A stretch of 56,596 bases of DNA, taken from Azotobacter chroococcum. GTDB taxonomy: Bacteria > Pseudomonadota > Gammaproteobacteria > Pseudomonadales > Pseudomonadaceae. This document shows positions 34,559-37,916 of this stretch, one piece after another (the first letter of the stretch is position 1; each line of letters starts with the position of its first letter). The notes beneath the pieces were generated by a model. The model was not told the origin of the DNA, did not search any database, and was given only the letters and a program-made list of their open reading frames with translations. Location of the stretch: NCBI RefSeq assembly GCF_004339665.1, contig NZ_SMMU01000024.1, positions 1 through 56,596 on the forward strand. Reading direction: 5' to 3'. Both the position numbers and the translations under genes were made by a program.

Positions 34559-35152
34559 TCAGATCTCGCCCTGCTGCATGGCCTTCTGTGGAAAGCGCCA
34601 GTTCTCGAACGCCTTGGGAAACAGCATGCCAGCGTCGCCGCGCGGGCCGCTGAACACCTGGCGCAGGCGCGGCGCGCCCAGCTTGCCGCTGGGGTCCAGC
34701 TCCTCCACCTTGTCCAGCGCCTCCAGGGATTCGGCCTCGCGGCCCAGGCGGGCCAGGTTGTAGGCGTAGGCGGTGAGCGACTGCAGCCAGAGACGGGTGA
34801 AGGCGTGCCAGTGGACGAAGTCGGCCATGTCCGCGCGGACCTCGCGCCAGTCCGCCGGCAGGCCGAGGCGCCGGGACAGCCACTCGATGCAGGCCAGCGC
34901 CCAGTGCGCGGCTTCCAGCGAGCGCCGCCGGTAGAAATAGAAGCGGTAGGCGACGATGCGCACGCCCAGGGTGTCCGGCGCCTGGTCGATGATTTCCCGG
35001 ACCAGTGTCTCGGCTTTTTCCGCCTCGTTCCAGTGGGCGAAGATTTCCTTCAGCCTGGCGCGGGTGTCCGGCGGCAGGTGATGGCTGAAGTGATAGGGCT
35101 CAAGACGGTAGATGCGGGCGCTGGCGGGCTGTGACGAAGCGGACTCGGACAT
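34559..35152 (-). CDS. TPR-like protein of unknown function with a sigma54-type promoter
   Basis: The 197-residue soluble protein has no signal peptide. Helical repeats are seen: DTRARLKEIFAHWNEAEKAETLV, then RSLEAAHWALACIEWLSRRL, then a final TPR-like unit, LTAYAYNLARLGREAESLEALDKVEELDP, with the usual A-x3-LG-x6-A-L pattern. Many Trp, His and Phe residues lie in DMADFVHWHAFTRLWLQSL. The start at 35152 has AGGAG upstream and the promoter TGGCTCCGATCTTGCG 37 bases before it. It is divergent to the PhnD-like protein and NifA-type activator. Function is unknown. Its promoter type and position make it a likely target of that activator. Confidence 0.65.
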   Translation of the reverse strand: MSESASSQPASARIYRLEPYHFSHHLPPDTRARLKEIFAHWNEAEKAETLVREIIDQAPDTLGVRIVAYRFYFYRRRSLEAAHWALACIEWLSRRLGLPADWREVRADMADFVHWHAFTRLWLQSLTAYAYNLARLGREAESLEALDKVEELDPSGKLGAPRLRQVFSGPRGDAGMLFPKAFENWRFPQKAMQQGEI

Positions 35153-35188
35153 GGCGGTTGCTCCTGGACGGGGGGATGGGGCGCCCCT

Positions 35189-35204
35189 CGCAAGATCGGA
35201 GCCA
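35189..35204 (-). promoter_or_regulatory. Sigma54 (-24/-12) promoter of the TPR-like gene
   Basis: On the minus strand the sequence reads TGGCTCCGATCTTGCG, with GG and GC 10 bases apart (consensus TGGCACN5TTGCW, mismatch at one -24 position and the last base). The predicted start near 35178 leaves a 26-base leader holding AGGAG. Confidence 0.6.
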
Positions 35205-35319
35205 GCGCTGCGGCTCTTCGCCCCTGCCGCTCGCTGCGTGGCCGGGGCCGGCATCCGGCGGGCCTTCGCTGCCGCGCCCGGCGGGCTCCTTCCCGCGTGC
35301 CTCCGGCCTCGGGCTGTTC

Positions 35320-35342
35320 CGGCCGGTGCGCAATCGGCCGGT
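35320..35342. repeat. Direct repeat between divergent sigma54 promoters
   Basis: CGGCCGGT occurs at 35320-35327 and again at 35335-35342, a 15-base period. It lies 60-83 bases upstream of the plus-strand -24 element, where an enhancer-binding protein site would sit. A binding role is speculative. Confidence 0.3.
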
Positions 35343-35402
35343 ATTTGGTTCGCATCCGTACGTTCTGCCCCGCTCGGGGGCCGATCGAGGGGGCGCGGCG
35401 CC

Positions 35403-35418
35403 TGGAACGGAGCTTGCT
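35403..35418 (+). promoter_or_regulatory. Sigma54 (-24/-12) promoter of the PhnD-like/activator operon
   Basis: TGGAACGGAGCTTGCT matches TGGCACGN4TTGCT at all but one position, with correct GG-GC spacing. The predicted start near 35429 leaves about 56 bases before the ATG at 35485. It implies the activator may regulate its own operon. Confidence 0.65.
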
Positions 35419-35484
35419 GTGTCTTCTGCGGATGCCGCCCTGGCGGCGCGACCACTCTCCGGAGATGCTGTTAGCCAGTCGATT

Positions 35485-36366
35485 ATGAAAGCCCTCAGAT
35501 GCGGATTGCTGCCCGGCGAGTCCCGGGCGGTGGTGGAACGACTCAACGAACCCCTGCGCGTCAGCCTGGAGCGCCGCCTGGGACTGCCGGTGAAGCTGCT
35601 GGTCGGCAGTACCTACGTGGCCACCGGCGAGGCCCTGCGCCGGGGACAACTGGATCTGGCCTACCTCGGCCCGGTGACCTACATCCTGCAGAGTCGCCAC
35701 GCCGGCCTGGAGCCTTTCGCCCGGCCCACCCACGGCGGCAGCCGGGGGCCGACTTTCCAGGCGGCGATCCTCGTGCCCGCCGACAGCCCGGTGAAAAGCC
35801 TCGAACAACTGCGCGGCGCGGAGATCGCCATGGGCGACCTGGCTTCCACTTCCGGCGCCTGGGTGCCCCGGCACATGCTGTTGCGGGCGGGGCTGGCCGC
35901 TGACCGAGACTATGTGCGCCGCACCCTCGGCGCCCACGACCAGGTGGCCGCAGCGGTGGCCGCCGGCCAGTCGGCGGCCGGCGGACTGTCCCTCCAGGTC
36001 CTTCGCCGCCTGCTCGCCGAGAGGCGCCTGGAACGGCGGGCCGTGCGCATCCTCGCCGAGTCGCCGCCGATTCCCGAATACCTGTGGACCTTCCGCGAAG
36101 GGTTGCCGGTGGAGTTGCGCGAGGCCATACGCCGGGCCTTCTTCGAGCTGCGCGAGCCGGCCGCCCTCAGCGCCTACGCGGCGGAATCCTTCATTCCCGC
36201 GGTGGACGCCGATGTCGACAGGGTCCGCCACTGGATGGAGGAAATCCTCGAGGCCCGGCTGCAACCCGGCGGGCTGAAGGCCGCCGGCGAGCAGCCGGTT
36301 CAGCCCCTTCCCCGGTTGACGCTGCCCTGGCGGCGCGCCAGCGGAGCATCTGGAGAACGTCAATGA
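35485..36366 (+). CDS. Cytoplasmic PhnD-like (phosphate/phosphonate-type) binding protein
   Basis: The 293-residue protein belongs to the PhnD/PBP2-type periplasmic-binding fold. VERLNEPLRVSLERRLGLPVKLLVGSTYVATGEALRRGQLDLAYLGPVTYIL is the family opening, and LVPADSPVKSLEQLRGAEIAMGDLASTSGAWVPRHML is the hinge region. Unlike transport binding proteins it has no signal peptide or lipobox, and no permease or ATPase gene is near. The start is set by the sigma54 promoter at 35403-35418; earlier Mets would lie upstream of transcription. A seven-codon ORF (35465-35488) overlaps its start as ATGA. Its own stop overlaps the activator start by ATGA. It is probably an intracellular ligand sensor for the activator. 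Confidence 0.7.
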   Translation: MKALRCGLLPGESRAVVERLNEPLRVSLERRLGLPVKLLVGSTYVATGEALRRGQLDLAYLGPVTYILQSRHAGLEPFARPTHGGSRGPTFQAAILVPADSPVKSLEQLRGAEIAMGDLASTSGAWVPRHMLLRAGLAADRDYVRRTLGAHDQVAAAVAAGQSAAGGLSLQVLRRLLAERRLERRAVRILAESPPIPEYLWTFREGLPVELREAIRRAFFELREPAALSAYAAESFIPAVDADVDRVRHWMEEILEARLQPGGLKAAGEQPVQPLPRLTLPWRRASGASGERQ

Positions 36367-37916
36367 AGTCGCATTCCGTGGACGCGCTTTCCGGTCGGGA
36401 GCTGCCGGTGCAGGACAAGCCCTGCGAATGGGACATGGGCGAATGCCGCACCGATCTGCTGCCGCTGCTCGGCGAGCTGGGGCGCATCGCCAGCGAGGGC
36501 GGCGACCTGGCCGGCATCCTGCGGGTGCTGCTGGAGCTGATGCAGCGCCATCTGAAGGTGACGCGCGGCATGGTGACCCTGCGCGATCCGGAGTCGGGGC
36601 GGATCTTCGTCCAGCAGGGCTGCGGCCTGAGCGAGGAGGAGGAGGCCTCGGGCAGCCTCGCCCATGGCGAGGACATCGTCGCCCAGGTGGTGGACAGCGG
36701 CCGGGCGGTGCTGCTGCCCGGCGAGGCGGGCAGCCAGTCCTTCCTCTGCGTGCCGATCCGCCGCGACCGCAAGGTGCTCGGCGCCATCGTCGCCGAGCGC
36801 CACTACGCCAACCGGCAGATGCTCGAACTGGACGCGGAGATCCTCGCCATCCTCGCCGCCACCACCGCCCAGGCGGTGGAGCTGCACCTGCAGGAGCACG
36901 TGCGCAAGGTCGCTCTGGAGGACGAGAACCGCCGCCTGCGCTCGGCTCTGCAGAGCCGCTTCAGGCCCAGCAACATCATCGGCAGCTCGCGGCCGCTGCA
37001 GGAGGTCTACGCGCTGATCGAGAAGGTCACCCGCTCGCGGACTACGGTGCTGATCCTCGGCGAGAACGGCGTGGGCAAGGAGCTGGTGGCCAGCGCCATC
37101 CACTACAACAGCAGCAATGCCGAGGGCCCCTTCGTCAAATTCAACTGCGCCGCCCTGCCGGAGAGCGTCATCGAGAGCGAGCTGTTCGGCCACGAGCGCG
37201 GCGCCTTCACCGGGGCGGCGAACCAGCGGCGCGGGCGTTTCGAGGCGGCGGACGGCGGCACCATCTTCCTCGACGAGGTGGGCGAGCTGTCCCTGGCCAT
37301 GCAGGCCAAGCTGCTGCGGGTACTGCAGGAAAAGAGCTTCGAGCGGGTCGGCGGCAACCTCACCCACCAGGTCGAGCTGCGCATCCTCGCCGCCACCAAC
37401 CGCGACCTGCGGGCGATGGTGGAGCAGGGCCGCTTCCGCGAGGATCTCTACTACCGGCTCAACGTCTTCCCCATCACCGTGCCGCCGCTGCGCGAGCGCG
37501 GCAGCGACATCGCCACCCTGGCGGAGCATTTCGTCGCGCGCTTCTCCGCCGAGATGGGCGTCGCGGTGGAGCGCATCGCCGCGCCGGCGATGAGCATGCT
37601 GATGTGCTACCACTGGCCGGGCAACGTGCGCGAACTGGAGAACGTCATCGAGCGGGCGGTGATCCTCTGCGAGGGCGGCGTCATCGAGGCCCACCACCTG
37701 CCGCCTTCCCTGCAGATCCCGGCGGTTTCCGAGAGTCCTGCCGCCGGCGGCATTCTCGACGTACGTCTGGGGCAGGCGGAATACGAGCTGATCGTCGAGG
37801 CCCTCAAGCTGCACAAGGGCAACATGACCGAGGCCGCCGCCCACCTGGGCCTGACCCGGCGCATCCTCGGCCTGCGCATGGCCCGGCACAACCTGAACTA
37901 CAAGGAGTTTCGCTGA
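36363..37916 (+). CDS. NifA/VnfA-type sigma54-dependent transcriptional activator
   Basis: The 517-residue activator has an N-terminal GAF domain at about residues 35-175 (LLELMQRHLKVTRGMVTLRDPESG ... LCVPIRRDRKVLGAIVAE). A central AAA+ domain follows (IIGSSRPLQEVY from about 205; Walker A GENGVGKE 233-240; sigma54 loop GAFTGA 280-285; Walker B TIFLDEVGEL). A C-terminal Fis-type HTH is NMTEAAAHLGLTRRILGLRMAR. The layout is that of NifA, VnfA and AnfA. Two Cys before the GAF domain (Cys21, Cys28) could bind a metal or Fe-S cluster, as Cys in VnfA do, but the spacing differs. It is translationally coupled to the PhnD-like protein. Targets are probably the two divergent sigma54 promoters nearby. 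Confidence 0.85.
   Translation: MKSHSVDALSGRELPVQDKPCEWDMGECRTDLLPLLGELGRIASEGGDLAGILRVLLELMQRHLKVTRGMVTLRDPESGRIFVQQGCGLSEEEEASGSLAHGEDIVAQVVDSGRAVLLPGEAGSQSFLCVPIRRDRKVLGAIVAERHYANRQMLELDAEILAILAATTAQAVELHLQEHVRKVALEDENRRLRSALQSRFRPSNIIGSSRPLQEVYALIEKVTRSRTTVLILGENGVGKELVASAIHYNSSNAEGPFVKFNCAALPESVIESELFGHERGAFTGAANQRRGRFEAADGGTIFLDEVGELSLAMQAKLLRVLQEKSFERVGGNLTHQVELRILAATNRDLRAMVEQGRFREDLYYRLNVFPITVPPLRERGSDIATLAEHFVARFSAEMGVAVERIAAPAMSMLMCYHWPGNVRELENVIERAVILCEGGVIEAHHLPPSLQIPAVSESPAAGGILDVRLGQAEYELIVEALKLHKGNMTEAAAHLGLTRRILGLRMARHNLNYKEFR

Follow-up and report, generated by a model that had tools for sequence, protein, structure and literature searches.

A vnfZ-vnfA3 operon in Azotobacter chroococcum and VnfZ as a proposed cytoplasmic vanadate sensor in bacteria with vanadium nitrogenase

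Introduction

This report concerns a three-gene locus in a 56,596-nucleotide stretch of Azotobacter chroococcum DNA (contig NZ_SMMU01000024.1 of assembly GCF_004339665.1; the window), in which the overlapping genes vnfZ and vnfA3 are transcribed away from the gene of a TPR-like protein. The closest described system is that of Azotobacter vinelandii, studied by Appia-Ayme et al. (2022; PMC9542535) as Avin_47120, vnfZ (Avin_47110, annotated as phosphonate-binding) and vnfA3 (Avin_47100) with chromatin immunoprecipitation sequencing (ChIP-seq), Cappable-seq, two-hybrid assays and co-immunoprecipitation. According to the text of that study, divergent sigma54 promoters and occupancy by VnfA1 and VnfA3 map to the locus, and the overlap of vnfZ and vnfA3 is accompanied by translational coupling. 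The VnfA motif reads GT(T/A)C-N6-GTAC, and most A. vinelandii targets carry two such motifs. Two-hybrid assays showed contacts of VnfZ with both VnfA3 and VnfA1, VnfZ was pulled down with VnfA3 only in the absence of vanadium, and the class B (vanadium-starvation) promoters require vnfZ. The authors proposed that VnfZ, a paralog of the putative vanadate-binding protein VodA, is inactivated by vanadium (PMC9542535). Earlier, a vnf-linked 'phosphonate' transporter had been suggested to import vanadate, and a VnfA3 ortholog had been noted in A. chroococcum (PMC4465626); PMC13102585 mentions vnfZ in passing. In a literature search on vnfZ, vodA and Avin_47120, only PMC9542535 was relevant among the matches listed.

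Three further groups of proteins resemble VnfZ. VodA is 58-63% identical to VnfZ and shares its pocket residues. It has ATP-binding cassette (ABC) partners and, in 7 of 7 Azotobacter/Azomonas-group sequences, a signal-peptide-like leader, whereas VnfZ lacks a leader and has a longer tail. PtxB and PhnD share the fold and the STS-H core with VnfZ; however, they are periplasmic transporter components with an aspartate (D22) as cap partner, where VnfZ has G11. AioX and ArrX, which sense arsenic oxyanions, act through a histidine kinase. They matched VnfZ by profile and by fold, belong to the PtxB-like signalling proteins (PMC5908839) and are periplasmic, in contrast to VnfZ, whose predicted location is the cytoplasm and which contacts the activator directly in A. 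vinelandii. Held against the marks of an AioX-type sensor, VnfZ has no leader, and the gene downstream of it encodes a GAF/AAA+ activator.

The locus in the window is the vnfZ-vnfA3 operon of an Azotobacter species together with its divergent Avin_47120-type gene. Order, overlap, divergent sigma54 promoters and VnfA site are those of A. vinelandii, and the three proteins are 92-94% identical to those of A. vinelandii CA (TPR-like protein 92%, VnfZ 94%, VnfA3 94%). An earlier interpretation made without database searches (the sequence-only reading) had described a self-contained module of a kind not previously reported, in which a cytoplasmic PhnD-like protein gates a NifA-type activator. Such gating has been published for the A. 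vinelandii ortholog, which disposes of the claim to novelty, and self-containment is contradicted by the partial dependence of the vnfZ-vnfA3 sigma54 promoter on VnfA1 and by the contact of VnfZ with VnfA1 (PMC9542535). The system is thus already known, and the window adds a new ortholog and a testable extension. This extension, for and against which we see about equal weight, holds that VnfZ is a cytoplasmic vanadate sensor for the control of vanadium nitrogenase (V-nitrogenase) in beta- and gammaproteobacteria, that it arose from a duplicated transporter binding protein by loss of the signal peptide and gain of a tail, that it served VnfA1 first and VnfA3 later, and that its main job is to call for vanadium uptake rather than to switch on an iron-only (Fe-only) nitrogenase. 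Its wider spread among vanadium-dependent nitrogen fixers (V-fixers), an origin before VnfA3 and the lack of a tie to Fe-only nitrogenase would be new as far as the searched literature shows. The text of PMC9542535 refers to its supplements for vnfZ in related gammaproteobacteria; these supplements lay outside the scope of our literature searches, in which no paper reporting the extension to other V-fixers was recognised.

Fold and Ligand Pocket

Translation of vnfZ starts at ATG 35485. In A. vinelandii, the frame of the ortholog is open for no more than two codons before this ATG, in two other orthologs for two or three, and all six VnfZ proteins of the Azotobacter/Azomonas group begin with MK-x-[IL]-[KR]-CGLLPGES. 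Since this start is conserved among orthologs, VnfZ of the window has no signal peptide, and the sequence-only reading was right on this point as well as on the three-gene layout, its coordinates and the ATGA overlap. A 411-residue frame with a signal-peptide-bearing start at GTG 35131 was rejected, as the frame is not conserved.

VnfZ matches Pfam PF12974 (E 1.2e-60, with the longer frame as query) and reaches the NCBIfam subfamily TIGR01098 (194 bits; cut-off 112.05), but stays below the cut-off of the PhnD equivalog TIGR03431 (138.7 versus 261.1 bits). An AlphaFold2 model was built on an alignment of 69 rows, comprising the window protein and 68 of 72 listed frames, with the near copies L120, L130, L133 and L143 omitted. 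Its predicted local distance difference test (pLDDT) score is 91, compared with 57 for an earlier 13-sequence input, and the C-terminal tail is mostly unordered. The nearest solved fold is ligand-bound PtxB, with a template modelling (TM) score of 0.82-0.83 and a root-mean-square deviation of about 1.5 Å; against apo PtxB the TM score is 0.54-0.55.

In PtxB, phosphite is held by Y55, S130, T131, S132, H160 and the cap residue Y208 (PMC5700983). Alignment maps these to Y44, S121, T122, S123, H151 and Y199 of VnfZ, and the six residues are kept in 19 of 19 VnfZ sequences and in 48-49 of 49 VodA sequences. The partner of the capping tyrosine, D22 in PtxB, corresponds to G11 in every VnfZ sequence and to glycine in 42 of the 49 VodA sequences. 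PtxB Y100 is replaced by phenylalanine (F91) throughout VnfZ and VodA. VnfZ therefore keeps an oxyanion pocket matching that of VodA, of which sequence cannot tell the preferred oxyanion. Two other residues, C6 and R145, separate the proteins completely (19/19 VnfZ versus 0/49 VodA), and 19-47 residues follow position 258 in every VnfZ sequence as against 2-14 in VodA. A C-terminal LPWR-like motif was rejected as a general mark of VnfZ; it is confined to some Azotobacter/Azomonas sequences, and other tails differ.

Distribution among Nitrogen Fixers

A peptide-pattern scan of genome contigs, which was not exhaustive, yielded at least 77 loci. The sequences were typed as VnfZ (19 without a hydrophobic leader, the window included), VodA-like with a leader (49) or distant (12). 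The split between VnfZ and VodA uses a threshold of leader hydrophobicity, to which one VnfZ sequence (L084) comes close, with 1.46 versus 1.5 in its pre-start frame. In a tree of 80 rows, from which the short fragments L148 and L152, duplicate Azotobacter/Azomonas loci and L104 were left out, a branch supported at 100/100 sets VnfZ as a clade apart from VodA; this clade and the residues C6 and R145 agree with the leader-based typing. The start codon lies at the homologous residue in 14 of the 19 VnfZ sequences; the remaining five carry a short extension that is not hydrophobic. All carriers are beta- or gammaproteobacteria where the group is named, three metagenome bins being labelled only 'Proteobacteria'. 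The sequence-only reading had singled out a signal peptide and ABC genes accompanying the orthologs as evidence that would speak against it. The 19 VnfZ sequences show no hydrophobic leader, but in two of the 19 loci (L093 and L094) vnfZ follows vodC-vodA-vodB.

Co-occurrence with nitrogenases was judged by VnfD (V-nitrogenase) and AnfD (Fe-only nitrogenase) alone. All 19 VnfZ genomes have VnfD over cut-off, and 5 of them AnfD. For the 13 carriers that do not belong to the Azotobacter/Azomonas group, among 20 genomes examined, the counts are 13/13 and 1/13, respectively. Six genomes gave VodA without VnfZ in the pattern scan (VnfZ was not searched separately there), and VnfD is over cut-off in three of them. 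Within the family, VnfD is over cut-off in 7 of 15 genomes (G000, the window's own, and G017, G033, G044, G010, G027 and G051) and AnfD in 4. The window's own genome, a draft of 99 contigs rated 100% complete, gave no AnfD over cut-off; hence no Fe-only nitrogenase was found there for the module to control, whereas A. vinelandii has one (anfHDGK). Since 14 of the 19 VnfZ genomes gave no AnfD over cut-off, the main job of VnfZ may be the call for vanadium uptake.

Thiorhodococcus drewsii (L152) is the sole examined genome that combines AnfD over cut-off, VnfD not over cut-off and a trace of vnfZ, which there consists of mere fragments before a VnfA-type gene. In G033, the region L046 (8714-9530) holds remains of a second copy, in which a fragment with the C-terminal 48 residues of the TPR-like protein adjoins one of 192 residues from a VnfA-type activator.

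Activator Partners

The activator of the window matches Pfam GAF, Sigma54_activat and HTH_8, lies below the cut-off of the NCBIfam nifA equivalog (TIGR01817, 442.4 versus 528.85 bits) and falls into the VnfA3 clade of an activator tree with 100/99 support. The search for candidate activators used the GAF domain (E <= 0.001); drafts and metagenome bins were among the genomes covered, and three rows of the VnfA3 clade are long branches of unsure place. A VnfA3-clade member was found in 8 of the 19 VnfZ genomes and only other activators of the family in 10; G307 remained unplaced owing to partial genes. A same-strand activator lies downstream of vnfZ in 9 of 18 fetched loci. The coupling of VnfZ to VnfA3 is thus not general, because the other nine loci have no downstream activator. 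Because 10 of 19 VnfZ genomes gave no VnfA3-clade activator, VnfZ probably served VnfA1 first and predates VnfA3, which agrees with the published two-hybrid contact between VnfZ and VnfA1 (PMC9542535). A further A. vinelandii activator at 3419 kb (L206), taken as VnfA2, is the sister of VnfA3 inside the VnfA3 clade (99/96). This nesting suggests a recent duplication of vnfA3.

Proposed Mechanism and Alternatives

For vnfZ-vnfA3 we put forward with considerable confidence a vanadium-response mechanism. Without molybdenum, VnfA1 would bind the shared enhancer and start transcription in both directions from the sigma54 promoters. Under vanadium starvation, cytoplasmic VnfZ free of ligand would bind VnfA3 and VnfA1 and let them activate the starvation promoters, whose targets would be siderophore-type uptake genes and, in A. 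vinelandii, anfHDGK as well. Once vanadate becomes available, VnfZ would bind it, close and release the activators. By extension, VnfZ would assist VnfA-type activators of V-fixers in general, and this role would be older than VnfA3. Experiments in A. vinelandii established the promoters, their occupancy by VnfA1 and VnfA3, the contacts of VnfZ and the requirement for it (PMC9542535), whereas vanadate as the ligand, release by closure, the transfer to the species of the window and the extension to other V-fixers are inferred. Vanadate is the likelier ligand because VnfZ is a paralog of VodA and VnfD is over cut-off in every VnfZ genome. The mechanism is further favored by the protein identity and gene order shared with A. 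vinelandii, the rare combination of enhancer and promoter, the invariant pocket residues, the frequency of sigma54 elements and strict VnfA sites before vnfZ, and the decay of vnfZ in T. drewsii.

Several observations weigh against this mechanism. The intact pocket would also suit phosphate, phosphite, arsenate or molybdate. In nine of the 18 fetched loci, vnfZ is not followed by an activator. Deletion of vnfA3 in A. vinelandii is reported not to have slowed Fe-only growth (PMC9542535). Finally, in G033, which belongs to the same genus and has VnfD over cut-off, vnfA3 and the TPR-like gene flank a vnfZ remnant of about 36 N-terminal codons (L044, 7458-7589) with a weak C-terminal trace (E 0.02). 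Since only this remnant is left in a genome with VnfD over cut-off, vnfZ is dispensable there.

VnfZ might instead bind no small ligand in the cell and act as a protein adaptor in the assembly of VnfA1 and VnfA3, vanadium being sensed elsewhere, for example by V-nitrogenase proteins. An assembly role like that of HrpV and nitrogenase-mediated sensing by VnfA1 are both discussed in PMC9542535, and the long tail of VnfZ, together with the VnfZ-only residues C6 and R145, would fit a protein adaptor. However, the pocket residues are invariant in 19 widely diverged sequences, which would be needless for a mere scaffold, and we regard this explanation as unlikely. Less probable still is that phosphate, phosphite or a phosphonate is the ligand of VnfZ, through which the activator would respond to phosphorus status; the sequence-only reading had favored a ligand of this class. 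The nearest solved relatives do bind phosphite or phosphonate (PtxB, TM 0.82-0.83), and the phosphite-coordinating residues are conserved in VnfZ; nor is F91 an argument against phosphite, because a phosphite-binding PhnD likewise has phenylalanine at this position (PMC5700983). On the other side stand the presence of VnfD over cut-off in all VnfZ genomes, the encoding of the paralog VodA with a putative vanadate transporter, the replacement of the PtxB cap partner D22 by G11 in all VnfZ sequences and the A. vinelandii phenotypes, which track vanadium (PMC9542535). That linkage to vnfA3 alone has retained vnfZ as the remnant of a lost transporter is scarcely credible: degraded copies in G033 and T. 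drewsii would fit, but the frame is full-length in 19 sequences, nine of the 18 fetched loci have no adjacent downstream activator, and the published A. vinelandii deletion phenotype, in which class B promoters need vnfZ, contradicts it (PMC9542535).

If VnfZ is indeed a vanadate sensor, a transport binding protein has turned into the intracellular partner of an AAA+ activator, which would be an unusual sensing design. Judging from related genes, the vanadium switch seems to have a longer history and a wider range than the single species in which it was studied. The comparison also yields simple tests, as it provides species with VnfZ in which neither VnfA3 nor AnfD was found, such as the cultured V-fixers Imhoffiella purpurea and Parasulfuritortus cantonensis, and pocket and VnfZ-only residues that can be mutated.

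A Divergent Gene with Relatives in nif Clusters

The protein encoded opposite vnfZ has no Pfam or NCBIfam match at 0.001. The term 'TPR-like' of the sequence-only reading is weak for this protein, whose best Pfam TPR match (E 0.13) is below cut-off, and is firmer only for one relative from a nif cluster, which just passes the cut-off with TPR_19 (E 9.8e-6). Orthologs at 69-93% identity were found in 11 other genomes, in all of which VnfD is over cut-off. A TPR-like match of any kind occurs in 21 of 298 genomes; in 14 of these the best match has 25-37% identity (8 among the 15 family genomes). The seven family genomes with VnfD are the same seven that have a TPR-like ortholog at 77% identity or more.

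Two relatives, at 34% and 25% identity, are encoded in the nif cluster of the same genome, on contig 20 (L040, 6342-6887 and 15942-16595), and have no NCBIfam match at 0.001. One of them lies between nifV and a nifW-like gene (itself below the NCBIfam cut-off), the other near nifN and a NifX-associated gene. A literature search on TPR genes in nif clusters gave no matching paper. In other genomes, the gene stands in different surroundings. In Azomonas agilis, the gene stands behind TonB receptor, Peripla_BP_2, CobW and ABC genes on one strand (one gene of this operon, L043 10439-11470, was outside the domain scan), in Plasticicumulans it comes after TonB and Peripla_BP_2, and the G307 copy is preceded by ABC and glutamate-cysteine-ligase genes. 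The TPR-like gene is a member of the regulon, a point on which the sequence-only reading was incomplete, and in several relatives it sits within metal-uptake operons. It is a V-nitrogenase-linked relative of the two nif-cluster genes, and its product a putative accessory of vanadium handling or of V-nitrogenase.

Control Regions and Neighboring Genes

Both -24/-12 elements of the sequence-only reading are present (Table 1). A VnfA-type enhancer sits between them in the gap of about 330 bp that separates the TPR-like gene from vnfZ. The -24 and -12 cores of both elements are kept in 4 of 4 aligned genomes, and much of the gap is not conserved. Enhancer and promoter in combination (GTWC-N6-GTAC followed by a -24/-12 element at 38-68 bp) occur at only two places in the 4.86-Mb genome, with none for a control with the pattern reversed; the second place, on contig 4, lies beside a VnfA1-type gene. 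Taken alone, the -24/-12 pattern turns up often by chance: of 4000 random 411-bp stretches of the fetched loci, 636 carry it on one strand. Upstream of vnfZ it is found in 16 of the 18 fetched loci. A strict VnfA site within 400 bp upstream of vnfZ is present in 10 of 18 loci, compared with 245 of 4000 random stretches. The only two loci without a sigma54 element before vnfZ are L093 and L094, where vnfZ is the next gene after vodC-vodA-vodB, an arrangement that is possibly ancestral and possibly secondary.

Table 1. Positions of genes and control elements in the window
Feature	Positions	Strand	Remarks
Gene of TPR-like protein, 197 residues	34559-35152	minus	ortholog of Avin_47120
-24/-12 (sigma54) element for the TPR-like gene, TGGCTCCGATCTTGC	35190-35204	minus	
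Second VnfA-type site, GTTCCGGCCGGTGC	35316-35329	plus	one mismatch
VnfA-type enhancer, GTTCGCATCCGTAC	35348-35361	plus	exact match to GT(T/A)C-N6-GTAC
-24/-12 (sigma54) element for vnfZ-vnfA3, TGGAACGGAGCTTGC	35403-35417	plus	
vnfZ, 293 residues	35485-36366	plus	predicted cytoplasmic PhnD/PtxB-fold protein
ATGA overlap	36363-36366	plus	vnfZ stop / vnfA3 start
vnfA3, 517 residues	36363-37916	plus	activator with GAF, sigma54 AAA+ and Fis-type helix-turn-helix domains

The scanned neighbors of vnfZ encode the TPR-like protein, the activator, CinA, an extracytoplasmic function (ECF) sigma factor, FecR and a TonB receptor, with no permease or ATPase gene among them. A fecI-fecR-TonB receptor set (30248-34531) adjoins the TPR-like gene. 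In A. vinelandii, the place beyond the TPR-like gene holds a TonB receptor taken as Avin_47130, whereas the receptor of the window (30248-32614) is unmatched; its assignment as an Avin_47130 ortholog was rejected, as there is no significant match between the two. TonB receptors are also encoded divergently from vnfZ in Azomonas macrocytogenes, in Plasticicumulans (L208) and at the loci L088 and L092.

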